A DNA stretch of 44,657 nt from Verrucomicrobiota bacterium (GTDB lineage: Bacteria > Verrucomicrobiota > Verrucomicrobiia > Limisphaerales > UBA9464), in assembly GCA_016871615.1 (NCBI GenBank), contig VHCX01000026.1, positions 1 to 44,657 on the forward strand, read 5' to 3'. The position numbers and the translations under genes are program-made. Numbering within the stretch: the first letter of the stretch is position 1; each line of letters opens with the position of its first letter. Shown piece after piece: positions 7,823 to 18,527 of this stretch. The notes beneath the pieces are model-generated. The model made no database searches. It saw nothing but the letters and a program-made list of their open reading frames with translations, and was not told the DNA's origin.

Positions 7823-9046
7823 TCAGGATTTGACCCGGTACAGCGTCTCCCCGGCCTTCGGCACGTACAGGATGCCTTCGGCCTCGCGACCCTGGTAGTC
7901 GGCGGGATCCAGGGTGCGCCAGTCGCGGTAGCCGAGATTGATCTCGCGGCAGATCGATTCGGGAATGCCGGTCGCAAGCGTGACCCGGGCCCGTCGGGTC
8001 TCGATGCCGTTCTCGTAGGTTCCCTGGCCGAAGACGTGGGTGCTGTGGGCAAGGGTTCCCCAAGGGAAGTGCCGGAAGTGCTCCCATTGCTTGAGGAAAT
8101 AGTCGCGGCAATGGTAGCCGACCTGCCGGATGAGGGCCCCATGGACCACGCTGACCTCGTGCAGGTGCGGGGCGTAAATGATGAGTTCGCCCCCGGGCGC
8201 GAGCACCGGCTCCAGCTTGTACATGCACTTGGCCCCCACCCAAAGCTCGTCGTACATCGGCGGGGCGCAGCTCAGGATGGTGTGGTATTGGCGGTCCTTC
8301 CACTCGATGTGCGTCCGCGCGGACAGGTCGGCGGCCTGGTCCCAGGCCTCCTCCGGCGTGCCGCTGAAGAGGCCCGCCAACCCGTCGCCCCCGGGCTTCA
8401 CGACCAGCGCCAGGCACAGCTTGGGGATGGGCACCATGGCCCCGGCCCGGTCCACGACCCGGCGCACCGGGGTCCACTTCTGGCCGATTACGCCGACGGT
8501 GGTGATCACCGCCCCCAGCCAGTGGAAGAAGTTCAGGATCTCGGGTCCGCTCACCCCGGGGAACAGGTACTTGTTGCCGCCGCTGAACCCGACCACCTCA
8601 TGCGGGAACACCGGTCCGACGATCACGATCCGGTCGTAGTCGAGCACCCGCCGGTGGATCGAGACCGGCACGTCCATGGCGAAGAGGCCGTCCGAGAGGG
8701 CGCGGATCTCCTCGGCGGGAATGGTCCCGAGGGTGGTGAGGGCCGCGGGATTGTCCCACTCGTGGTTGAAGAGCCCGACCGAGGCATAGCGCGTGCGCCG
8801 CTCCTCAAGGCTGATCTCAAGACGGCCGCAAATGGCCTCCTCGGACATCGGCGGGTGGGTGCCCAAGGCCACCAGCACATCGAGGGCGGCCACGGCCCCG
8901 GACCACTCCGCATGCAGGGCCCTGAAGACGGCACCGATGGGCGCGGTGCGGGTCCCGTCCGGGATGATCAGCAGGATGCGCTGGCCGCGGACCTGGCTGG
9001 CGGGGTGGCGTTGGGCGATCCAGGGGGCGATCTCGGCGTCGTTCAT
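7823..9046 (-). CDS. LarA family nickel-pincer racemase/epimerase homologue (DUF2088)
   Basis: 407 aa, homologous to lactate racemase LarA, which interconverts 2-hydroxyacid stereoisomers using a covalently bound nickel-pincer nucleotide. Residues matching Lactobacillus plantarum LarA are all present: PDGTR (D30, R33; D72/R75), THPP His64 (H108), PHEVVGFSGGNK (H149 and K159; H174 and the cofactor-bearing K184, 10 apart) and FFHW His175 (H200, 16 after the Lys). The cofactor site therefore looks intact. Substrate need not be lactate: the family includes malate, glucose/mannose-type and phenyllactate enzymes. No larB, larC or larE is in the window. The ATG at 9044-9046 has GGGAG about 7 nt upstream; a 26-residue extension from another start is unlikely. 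Confidence 0.85.
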   Translation of the reverse strand: MNDAEIAPWIAQRHPASQVRGQRILLIIPDGTRTAPIGAVFRALHAEWSGAVAALDVLVALGTHPPMSEEAICGRLEISLEERRTRYASVGLFNHEWDNPAALTTLGTIPAEEIRALSDGLFAMDVPVSIHRRVLDYDRIVIVGPVFPHEVVGFSGGNKYLFPGVSGPEILNFFHWLGAVITTVGVIGQKWTPVRRVVDRAGAMVPIPKLCLALVVKPGGDGLAGLFSGTPEEAWDQAADLSARTHIEWKDRQYHTILSCAPPMYDELWVGAKCMYKLEPVLAPGGELIIYAPHLHEVSVVHGALIRQVGYHCRDYFLKQWEHFRHFPWGTLAHSTHVFGQGTYENGIETRRARVTLATGIPESICREINLGYRDWRTLDPADYQGREAEGILYVPKAGETLYRVKS

Positions 9047-15888: not shown

Positions 15889-17157
15889 TCAGGCGAAGGT
15901 GTTCTTCCGGTAGGCACCCATGGCCGGGGCATCCGGGTTCACCTCGGGGCCGAAGTAGCGCAGGCAGACCAGGGGCTCGGTCTCGCTGGTGTTCTCGAAG
16001 GTCACACCCGCCTTCGCGCCGTCTTCGGTGCAGAAGTATTCGTCCTCGGTCAGCTCGTGGAAGCGGATGAGCTTCGGGCTGTTCAACGGCAGTCCGTTGA
16101 TCTTGCCGCTGCCCTGCACGCAGATGAGGCCGTAGGCGCCGTTGTCTTGGATGGTGGCCTTCATGCCCGGGTCCACCGTGAGTTCCTTGGCGGTGAACAG
16201 CTGCTCACCATCGACCTTGCCGTACACGATCCAGCGGTCCACGAAGCCTTCCTTGCGGGTGTCGGCCACCGGCACCGGTTCGAGGTAGTGGTTGTCCTTG
16301 AAGTTCGGGTCGACGTTCTTGTCCCAGTCGAGCTGCTCGACGATGAAGTCGAGGTCCTGATGGTACTTCTTGGGCATGTCCTTCACCAAGAGGCTCCAGG
16401 GCACGTAGCGGCCCTCGACCATGCTCTGGTACATGCCGAACACGTCACTGCCCCACTGCGGCTCATAGGTGCAGAGGCTGCCCGGGGCGTGGAGGATGCA
16501 GGGGTCGATCAGCCAGCCGGTGCCGGGCTTGAGGCGGTAGGCCTTGGAGAGGTCCAGGATGCCGTTGTCGCCCCGGTTCCAGTCCTCGAGGCACCTGCGC
16601 ACCTGGGCCTTGGTCGTGCCCGGCTCGAAGCCCATGAAGGTGTAGGGGAAATGGTTTCCGACGTTGTTGTGCTGGGGCGGGAAGTAGTAGCTCTCGGGCT
16701 TGCCTTCGTGGCCCACCAGCTTGGCCTGCTTGGCCGACTGGTGCATGTGGTGGGGGATGGGGCCCATGTTGTCGAAGAACTTGGAGTAGACAGGCCAGCG
16801 CCCATACTTCTTCCAGATCGACTTGCCCACCAGGGTGGCCCCGGTGTCTTCGACGGCCTGGCGCAGCGTGAAACGCTCCTTGCCGACCACCACATAGCTC
16901 AGACCCTCGTCCGGGACCCGCCCTTCGTTGGCGGCCTCGGTCGTCGAGGCGAACCAGCGTTCATCGATGCCGCCGCGGTTGGCACCGTACGCGTAGGTGT
17001 CGTCCGGGTGGAGCTTGAGGCGGAGGCCCGGCTGCAGGAAGGCGCGCGGGACCCAGGCGGGCGCGAGGCGGAGCAGGCCGCCGGTGCGTGAAAGTTCGCT
17101 TTCGACCCTGAACTGGGTGTTTTTCCGGAGGGTCTTCAGTTGCGTGACAGTGTTCAT
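15889..17157 (-). CDS. Two-domain cupin, mannose-6-phosphate isomerase-like
   Basis: 422 aa from the ATG at 17155-17157; a longer frame upstream is not supported. The N-terminal cupin has a metal-site-like segment PIPHHMHQSAKQAKLVGHEG followed by ESYYFPPQ, then GNHFPYTFMGFEPGTTK and a helical insert (VRRCLEDWNRGDNGILDLSKAY). This architecture recalls type I phosphomannose isomerases. A second cupin lies near the C-terminus (YGLICVQGSGKINGLPLNSPKLIRFHELTEDEYF). The predicted role is sugar-phosphate isomerisation or sugar binding, but the substrate is unproven. It lies 213 nt downstream of the full flagellin frame on the same strand; no terminator was seen between them, so co-transcription is possible. 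Confidence 0.72.
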   Translation of the reverse strand: MNTVTQLKTLRKNTQFRVESELSRTGGLLRLAPAWVPRAFLQPGLRLKLHPDDTYAYGANRGGIDERWFASTTEAANEGRVPDEGLSYVVVGKERFTLRQAVEDTGATLVGKSIWKKYGRWPVYSKFFDNMGPIPHHMHQSAKQAKLVGHEGKPESYYFPPQHNNVGNHFPYTFMGFEPGTTKAQVRRCLEDWNRGDNGILDLSKAYRLKPGTGWLIDPCILHAPGSLCTYEPQWGSDVFGMYQSMVEGRYVPWSLLVKDMPKKYHQDLDFIVEQLDWDKNVDPNFKDNHYLEPVPVADTRKEGFVDRWIVYGKVDGEQLFTAKELTVDPGMKATIQDNGAYGLICVQGSGKINGLPLNSPKLIRFHELTEDEYFCTEDGAKAGVTFENTSETEPLVCLRYFGPEVNPDAPAMGAYRKNTFA

Positions 17158-17370
17158 CGACAGGCTTTTCAGATTTGGTCCCCCTCGACGGTCGACGGGC
17201 TTCCGGCACAAGACTGCCCTACGTGCCGCGATCGGCGAAGGAACGACGAACAATAGTCGCGACGGATGGTCTCGGGCCAAGGGAAATCCTAGCACGAGGC
17301 TGAGGAACGGAAGGCTCATCCGCCTGTTGGACCCTTCGCGGTCGCCTGATCCGACGCGGGCTGCGTTGTT

Positions 17371-17547
17371 TCAGTTCGGCAGCAACCGGAGGACGCCCTG
17401 CGAGAGCTGGTTGGCCTGGGCGAGCATGGCGGTGGTGGTCTGGTTGAGGATGTTCTGCTTGGAGAACTCGGTGCTTTCGGTCGCGACGTTGACGTCCTTG
17501 ATGGCGGAGGTTGCGGCCGAGACTGTCTCGGTGGTCGCCGCGAGGTA
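17371..17547 (-). pseudogene. Flagellin C-terminal D0/D1 segment beyond the in-frame amber codon
   Basis: Reading past the TAG at 17548-17550 in the same frame gives 58 more residues and a TGA at 17371-17373. The peptide starts YLAATTETVSAATSAIKD and continues NVATESTEFSKQNILNQ, then TAMLAQANQLSQGVLRLLPN. This is the classic flagellin C-terminus (compare the usual S-A-x-S-x-I-x-D-x-D-x-A-x-E and MLAQANQ). The frame and length are those of an intact gene, so only the one codon is wrong. Either the gene carries a nonsense mutation, the TAG is read through, or the base call is an error. Confidence 0.85.
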
Positions 17548-18189
17548 CTACGAGGCCATGTTGAGACGGGATTGGTTGGCACCGAGCAAGGCCCGGTCGG
17601 CGGCCAGCTGGTCGATCGCGGTGCGGATGCTGGCGATCGCGGTCGTTGCGGCTCCGGTGGTCGCGATGTTGGTGGCGGACTGGGTGACCGCGTTGTAGGT
17701 GGTCGAGGTCGCCCCGAGGTCGATGCCTGTCATCGTGAGGGTGGTTCCCTCCGGATCGATCACCGACGAAAGGCCGGACGACGAGAACAGGGAGACCCCG
17801 TTGAACTCCTTGGTTGCGATGTCCGTGATGAAGCTCTTGAGCTGCAAGAACTCGCTGTTGTATAGGTCCCGCTCGGCGTTGGCCTTGGTGCCGTCGAGCG
17901 AGAGCATGGCCAGCTCGCTCATGCGGTTGAGCGTCTTGGCGACGCGCTTGAGGTAACCGTCCTGGGTGATCGAGAAGGACTGGGCGTTCGCGACGTTATC
18001 CTTGGCGGAGTTGGCGCGATCGAGCTTGGCGTCGAAGCGCAGGCTGATCGCAAGACCGGCGGCATCGTCGAAGGCGTTCACGATGCGTGATCCCGAGCTC
18101 AGCTTGGCCAAGGACTTCGTCAGCGCGGCCGACGTCCTGGTGAGGTCCTTGGCGGCTAATTGCGCCGCCAAGTTGGAACTGGTGATCAT
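17548..18189 (-). CDS. fliC: Flagellin, cut short by an in-frame TAG
   Basis: Filament subunit exported by the flagellar type III system. The 213-aa open part carries the N-terminal D0/D1 region (residues 1-140: LTKSLAKLSSGSRIVNAFDDAAGLAISLRFDAKL, the LSSGSRI and DDAAGLAIS hallmarks, then TKEFNGVSLFS), a short variable middle and the start of the C-terminal D1 helix (ALLGANQSRLNMAS). It then stops at TAG (17548-17550). The remaining 58 residues are intact in frame to 17371, so the whole gene would encode 272 residues counting the TAG position, a compact flagellin. Without the C-terminal D0 helix the subunit should not polymerise. The ATG overlaps the csrA stop (ATGA); no Shine-Dalgarno sequence is visible. 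Confidence 0.93.
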   Translation of the reverse strand: MITSSNLAAQLAAKDLTRTSAALTKSLAKLSSGSRIVNAFDDAAGLAISLRFDAKLDRANSAKDNVANAQSFSITQDGYLKRVAKTLNRMSELAMLSLDGTKANAERDLYNSEFLQLKSFITDIATKEFNGVSLFSSSGLSSVIDPEGTTLTMTGIDLGATSTTYNAVTQSATNIATTGAATTAIASIRTAIDQLAADRALLGANQSRLNMAS

Positions 18190-18527
18190 ACAGTTCTACT
18201 GTGCTTTTGGTTGGCGGCAGGACTGAAATCGGAAGGGGCCGCAGACAGGATCGCGTCGGACGGTTTGGAAGGCAGGGAGGGCTTGGAGGCCAGGAGTGAC
18301 TTGCCCTGGGGACCGAGGAGCGGGGGAATCTGGCCGTGGGGGGCGCGCGTCGCCGCCTCGCGGTTGGCGCGCTGGATCTCCTCGTAGACCTCCTGACGGT
18401 GTACGGGGATGCTCGAGGGGGCCTCGATGCCCACCTTATCCGTGTCGCCGTCGGTGCGGATGATCTTGACGACGATCCGACCGTCGATGATGACGCTCTC
18501 CCCGGTTTTTCTTGAAAGTATCAGCAT
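18186..18527 (-). CDS. csrA: Translational regulator CsrA with an extended C-terminus
   Basis: Dimeric RNA-binding protein that blocks ribosome access at GGA-containing hairpins; in bacteria with FliW it represses flagellin translation. 113 aa against the usual 60-75. The canonical domain fills residues 1-60: MLILSRKTGESVIIDG, KVGIEAP and VHRQEVYEEIQ, where the Arg in VHR is the RNA-contacting residue by homology. The extra 53 residues are Ser/Pro/Ala-rich and probably disordered. FliW-partnered CsrAs commonly have a lengthened C-terminus that binds FliW; whether this tail does is unknown. The start ATG 18525-18527 has a strong AAGGAAGG site 5 nt upstream. The stop is fused to the flagellin ATG, so the tail codons double as the flagellin leader. 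Confidence 0.95.
   Translation of the reverse strand: MLILSRKTGESVIIDGRIVVKIIRTDGDTDKVGIEAPSSIPVHRQEVYEEIQRANREAATRAPHGQIPPLLGPQGKSLLASKPSLPSKPSDAILSAAPSDFSPAANQKHSRTV
18187..18202 (-). promoter_or_regulatory. Hairpin abutting the flagellin start codon
   Basis: On the transcript, ACAGT-AGA-ACTGT (18190-18202) forms a 5-bp stem whose last base touches the flagellin ATG (18187-18189). No AGGAGG-like site and no GGA triplet occurs in the preceding 40 nt, so direct CsrA binding of the usual kind is not evident. The start probably depends on ribosomes finishing csrA. Confidence 0.4.

Follow-up and report, generated by a model that had tools for sequence, protein, structure and literature searches.

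A flagellin gene with an in-frame amber codon is probably a pseudogene in a Verrucomicrobiota genome without matches to core flagellar motor genes

The window analysed here, a stretch of 44,657 nucleotides on contig C26 of the draft genome of an uncultured bacterium (G000; 183 contigs totalling 3.83 Mb, completeness 95.59%, contamination 3.51%) from a genus that we infer to belong to the Verrucomicrobiota, contains a flagellin gene that is interrupted by an in-frame amber codon. It is very likely that this gene is a pseudogene, most likely formed by ordinary decay in a lineage in which the flagellum has been lost. The stop was absent in all 23 orthologues compared, and the pathway in which the protein would act appears to be lost, with no match to the FliG_C, YscJ_FliF and FliMN_C families in the genome and a deletion of ~15 kb in the main flagellar operon. 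What looked like a tempting candidate for recoding is thus most likely a case of ordinary gene decay, and the clue lay in the motor genes missing elsewhere in the genome rather than in the stop codon itself.

Flagellin pseudogenes occur in bacteria that have lost motility. The window gene shares with them the premature stop, the open copies in close relatives and the missing motor genes, but differs in that it seems to combine the two members of a tandem pair and lies next to open fliW and csrA genes. The portions of the literature available to us on premature stops in flagellin, hybrid flagellins, flagellins of Verrucomicrobia and readthrough contained no description of this case.

Interruption of the flagellin frame

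Translation of the minus strand from 18189 to 17371 gave 213 residues, a TAG at 17550-17548, a further 58 residues in the same frame and a TGA. Both the amber codon in the frame from 18189 and the flagellin C-terminus of 58 residues behind it, as described in the first-pass annotation, were therefore borne out. The Flagellin_N domain was found before the stop and the Flagellin_C domain after it, indicating that the frame behind the TAG is not a chance one; with Flagellin_C behind the in-frame TAG, however, no single open frame holds both domains. The start codon of the gene overlaps the stop codon of csrA. The upstream genes fliW and csrA, which had been called intact, are indeed both open and match their families (Table 1).

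Table 1. Features at the flagellin locus of the window
Feature	Position	Strand	Evidence
Probable flagellin pseudogene, 5' part: 213 codons and TAG stop	17548..18189	-	Translation; Flagellin_N PF00669, E 1.3e-22
3' remnant: 58 codons of flagellin C-terminus and TGA	17371..17547	-	Translation; Flagellin_C PF00700, E 8.6e-15
flaA-like segment, ~codons 1-50	18040..18189	-	Identity to G003 flaA; diagnostic sites
Mostly flaB-like segment, from ~codon 56	17371..18024	-	20 of 24 scorable diagnostic sites flaB-like
csrA, 113 aa, open frame with a long C-terminal tail	18186..18527	-	PF02599, E 7.6e-20; TIGR00202 over cut-off
fliW, open, 138 aa	18564..18980	-	PF02623, E 3.9e-34
Conserved ORF, 476 aa, downstream of flagellin	15889..17319	-	tblastn

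The ancestral state of the stop codon was sought, as the first-pass annotation had proposed, by aligning relatives. The codon alignment comprised 24 copies, namely the window copy and 23 from relatives. It included neither the copies of G012, G006 and contig C45 nor the third tandem copies from G009 and G015, the broken pair in G004 and the fragments from G002 and G017. At the stop column, 18 of the 23 relative copies encoded Asp and five Glu (GAC in 13, GAT in five, GAA in four and GAG in one, the outgroup copy of G014), and none of them had a stop or ended there. The proposed origin by one substitution in GAG, CAG or AAG was thus poorly matched by the relatives, in which CAG and AAG did not occur. 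Since TAG lies two positions away from the commonest state, Asp, an intermediate codon is likely.

The locus in related genomes

The flagellin query matched all 19 genomes of the genus, the window genome included. Flagellin genes stood beside fliW and csrA in 12 of 13 relative loci, the exception (L047) being a 42% match that lacks this pair. Of the 12 fliW-csrA loci, 11 carried two or three consecutive flagellins, and G005 a single one. A photolyase gene lay upstream in 11 and an mlaD-type gene downstream in 10 of these loci, the remaining contigs ending earlier. In the stretches covered from the more distant G006, G007, G012 and G014, a single flagellin gene followed fliW-csrA. The order in close relatives is fliW-csrA-flaA-flaB, as opposed to the single flagellin of the window, and a tandem flagellin pair is the usual state around the closest relatives of the window. 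In a tree of the flanking genes, the window genome and G003 were grouped with a support of 100, and G003 was nearest to the window in the mlaD, photolyase, PQQ-type and fliW genes; for csrA, G008 was slightly nearer than G003 by nonsynonymous differences.

The 476-aa ORF downstream of the flagellin gene gave tblastn matches of 77-96% in 11 of 12 relative loci searched and was also present in four more distant loci (in G011 the match runs off the end of the contig, and that of G018 was too short). It matched no Pfam or NCBIfam family, and it is a syntenic neighbour, not part of the flagellin locus proper.

Apparent hybrid structure of the flagellin genes

The single flagellin of the window looks like a hybrid of flaA and flaB. 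Over the first 30 alignment codons, its nucleotide identity was 0.91 to flaA of G003 and 0.76 to flaB of G003. When ten windows of 30 codons were compared, flaA was nearer in the first two and in the short last one, flaB was nearer in five, and two were about even. At the sites diagnostic for the two genes, seven of eight were flaA-like up to gene position 148, and the flaB-like majority given in Table 1 began at position 166. The best breakpoint lay between positions 148 and 166, and the contrast between the two parts was reached by 4 of 2,000 label shuffles. Measured against G003 alone, a sizeable minority of the later sites was flaA-like; because the later part is more mixed in this comparison, further conversion or parallel change is possible. 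In the trees, the window copy was placed next to the flaB group, though only weakly (support of 69 for nucleotides, 47 for protein), and was not the sister of G003 flaB, a placement compatible with a hybrid without proving one. A deletion between tandem flaA and flaB would leave one hybrid gene; the pattern is visible in the sites, and recombination would be its presumed source.

A check for other flagellin copies in the genome led to contig C45 (L093, 5295-6098), which carries an open flagellin gene of 268 aa with both flagellin domains. It also appeared to be a hybrid, whose parents are the first and second copies of another tandem pair known from relatives: all 21 scorable sites up to position 176 were first-copy-like, and 34 of the 38 thereafter were second-copy-like.

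Probable loss of flagellar motor genes

A FliG_C match was found in 17 of the 19 genomes of the genus, and the two without it were the window genome and G002. Family searches of the window genome, a 95.6% complete draft, with YscJ_FliF and with FliMN_C gave no match either, and the three models each gave a signal in the same four control genomes, those of E. coli, B. subtilis, C. vibrioides and T. maritima. Comparison of contig C65 of the window genome (L131) with contig C43 of G003 (L120, L133) showed the two to be collinear on both sides of a gap, with 79% identity over 4,355 bases before it and 87% over 7,685 bases after it. The junction at 9630-9702 of C65 skips positions 8318-23369 of C43, or ~15 kb, and links position 8317, at codon 24 of flgC, with ~23370, in the middle of an M13 peptidase gene; the name flgC rests on Flg_bb_rod and Flg_bbr_C matches and on position. 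A DNA query covering G003 from flgC to the export ATPase gene matched the middle of C65 with its first 73 bases; as 40 of 292 initial candidates were scored, it is by itself weak evidence of absence. A second hit of this query, at the end of contig C2, was discarded as a low-complexity GGC/ATG stretch.

None of the 13 ORFs of C43 in the skipped stretch had a match in C65. Ten of them match FliE, FliF, FliG, FliH, a FliI-type ATPase, FliJ, an FlgE/F/G-type protein, FliL, FliM and FliN, and the other three comprise one with a weak match below the cut-off, one with no match and one that was unscanned. The absence of FliE, FliH, FliI, FliJ and FliL refers to C65, while the whole-genome family searches covered FliF, FliG and FliM/N. 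Both flanks of the C65 junction are neighbours in G003, which makes a random chimera unlikely. The window genome thus lacks core components of the flagellar base. In the assembly, ~15 kb of the main flagellar operon with the genes for the MS ring, the switch, the rod and the export ATPase has been lost. As flagellin would be useless without a basal body, the nonsense codon and the changes at invariant positions could then have been tolerated. Translation would stop at the TAG and yield a stump of 213 residues that lacks the C-terminal D0 helix; by published mapping, such a stump should neither build a filament nor bind FliS.

Three options had been offered for the stop, of which a null allele with loss of motility was upheld by the operon deletion on one contig together with the family searches for FliF, FliG and FliM/N, while readthrough was not (see below). 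Other export genes are still present. The flhA gene on contig C20 is open, and contig C93 (L116) carries a second, open export set of FliP, a FliR-type protein, FlhB and FlhA, the last ~62% identical to FlhA of the second system of G008. That these genes are open suggests either that the loss was recent or that the assembly of a second system is incomplete. Motility had at first seemed likely to us, as both flhA genes and the C45 flagellin gene are open, and this view was reversed by the absent FliG match.

Signs of decay and of constraint in the window flagellin

The description of the gene as otherwise intact did not hold, owing to the apparent hybrid structure and to unusually many changes at positions that are invariant elsewhere. 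The window copy had 26 private states including the stop, and 12 of its 25 private residue changes fell at columns invariant in the others, whereas the 21 other copies together had 12 such changes among 81 private ones (Fisher p 0.0017; the comparison is uncorrected for relatedness and is no formal test of rates). These counts exclude the outgroup copies G014 and G007, and the other copies had 0 to 4 such changes each when scored without the window copy and 0 to 3 each when scored with it. The changes at invariant columns in the window copy fall both before and after the stop. The C45 flagellin showed six changes of this kind, compared to 0 to 2 in 16 of 18 copies, with 11 and 6 in the other two.

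Two-ratio codon models lent no support to relaxation on the branch of the window copy. For codons 57-272, omega was 0.037 in the foreground and 0.056 in the background (LRT 3.22), which is lower and not higher; for the codons after the TAG, it was 0.027 and 0.023 (LRT 0.13); and for codons 1-50 compared with flaA, it was 0.092 and 0.026 (LRT 2.60). This test is weak because the branch length was at its bound in the flaB comparisons and synonymous sites were saturated, and we therefore relied on the count at invariant columns. Among the controls, the only strong signal of a raised omega was on the G010 flaB branch (0.237, LRT 17.1). The csrA gene on the branch of the window had an omega of 0.270 compared to 0.106 (LRT 3.66).

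Pairwise comparison of codons 57-213 gave a pN/pS of 0.31-0.36 between the window copy and three flaB copies, as opposed to 0.19-0.22 in three pairs among flaB copies, and the nonsynonymous differences from the window copy to the three were ~1.6 times those among the three. These ratios are raised but far from neutral, suggesting that selection acted on the gene along most of the branch. Decay of codon usage was not seen, the codon adaptation of 0.741 and third-position GC of 0.908 being inside the ranges of the 21 other copies (0.571-0.807 and 0.703-0.933, respectively). The pattern of substitutions reads as a late relaxation on a branch that was probably constrained for most of its length.

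An assembly or base-call artefact as an alternative

Alternatively, the cells could hold an intact flagellin gene, or flaA and flaB, with the TAG and the hybrid arising from consensus error or from collapse of the tandem copies. This is unlikely, although the assembly is a draft of the metagenome type, in which the deletion and the hybrids could partly be artefacts. Two collapsed pairs in one assembly, as the hybrid C45 gene would imply, are suspicious, the contigs of several relatives start or end inside flagellin genes, and, with the mixed later part noted above, the window copy does not divide cleanly into two pieces. However, the in-register exact runs shared by flaA and flaB in ten relatives were at most 56 bases long (26 in G003), which is short for merging by an assembler; in nine tandem pairs of the C45 type, the longest shared runs were 18 to 54 bases. 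The unusual residues are found in both the flaA-like and the flaB-like parts, most of them away from the junction, and 15 other window genes that were checked had no internal stops. Furthermore, the missing motor genes are separate evidence that an error at the TAG alone would not explain.

FliW, CsrA and the truncated product

Decay of the filament gene would be compatible with a remaining role of its product. According to the available part of PMC6070490, Bacillus flagellin needs no more than its first 72 residues to bind FliW, and the segments protected by FliW are 11-34, 50-72 and 240-260. In Campylobacter, the N-terminal part of flagellin is essential for FliW and an intact C-terminus for FliS, as given in the available part of PMC5466977. 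Based on this mapping, and as the first-pass annotation had suggested for FliW, the stump could retain FliW binding, whereas binding to FliS would be lost. It is conceivable, albeit very improbable, that the stump of 213 residues has been kept as a regulator that binds FliW and frees CsrA. Besides the published mapping, the state of the neighbouring genes speaks for such a role, as fliW and csrA are open in the window and stop-free in G002 (residues 15-138 of FliW and 1-70 of CsrA align without stops). The G002 flagellin beside them (L021, C182 1501-2172) has a TAG at codon 74 and a TAA at about codon 224, so that in both genomes without fliG matches the pair adjoins a flagellin truncated past the residues that suffice in Bacillus. 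However, a stump with a kept fliW-csrA pair was seen in only these two genomes, and the retention of the pair may reflect other roles of CsrA or a recent loss. In addition, the otherwise invariant columns 11, 14 and 61 are changed in the window copy and lie within the Bacillus segments 11-34 and 50-72 (from the same part of PMC6070490) by plain numbering, unaligned. That flagella-less members of the genus generally keep an N-terminal stump as a soluble FliW ligand tuning CsrA appears just as improbable. If it were true, the regulatory half of the flagellin checkpoint would outlive the filament, and the presence of fliW-csrA beside a broken flagellin in two genomes without fliG matches raises the question of the role of the pair without a flagellum.

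Like the FliW-CsrA-flagellin homeostasis module of B. subtilis and C. jejuni, the window has neighbouring fliW, csrA and flagellin genes, and the long C-terminal tail of its CsrA, known here from sequence alone, is of the kind tied to FliW in the available part of PMC5466977. Unlike in that module, the flagellin is truncated and core genes of the flagellar base are missing, and the feedback loop should therefore be idle in the window genome. The accessible part of a paper on FliC-FliW-CsrA in Clostridioides difficile (PMC11898703) held nothing on a truncated flagellin.

Readthrough of the amber codon

Programmed readthrough or amber suppression that yields some full-length flagellin is the least probable explanation and can be set almost entirely aside. 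Behind the TAG, the frame runs on unbroken and retains its Flagellin_C match, and readthrough has been proposed for in-frame stops of bacterial genes with a low dN/dS in the available part of PMC7918605. The window gene resembles those suspected genes in its in-frame stop and the conserved-looking frame behind it, but its stop is not shared by any of the 23 relatives and its pathway is broken elsewhere. An amber suppressor tRNA or PylS had been suggested as something to look for. The 45 tRNA genes typed by ARAGORN in the draft genome all had sense anticodons and none had CTA, and RF1 was present above its cut-off. As the general tRNA model might miss tRNA-Pyl, a PylS search was added, which gave two weak hits, both below the cut-off; this model gave a signal in 13 of 14 controls, one of them over the cut-off. 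Moreover, the export base was lacking by the searches for FliF, FliG and FliM/N, and no in-frame stop was present in the C45 flagellin, the other flagellin of the genome. TAG ends 2 of the 16 window genes checked.

Broken flagellins in related genomes

A search of 50 genomes of the family yielded 101 flagellin matches with an E of at most 1e-30, three of which contained in-frame stops, namely that of the window, one in G002 and one in G036. Among the weaker flagellin matches in the genus, one more piece of G002 contained a TGA. No match to flhA or fliG was found in G002, which with its broken flagellin forms a parallel to the window genome; as G002 is ~86% complete, these absences are weaker evidence. 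In G004 (L045, C309 4249-5710), both tandem flagellins showed an internal deletion and a frame shift, which may be assembly error or decay, and fliG matches were present. Unless the G004 frame shifts are assembly errors, a broken flagellin is therefore not strictly tied to the loss of the motor. In G036 (L124, C152:1500-6500), a member of the family outside the genus, one flagellin has a single in-frame TAG and the adjoining copy is stop-free.
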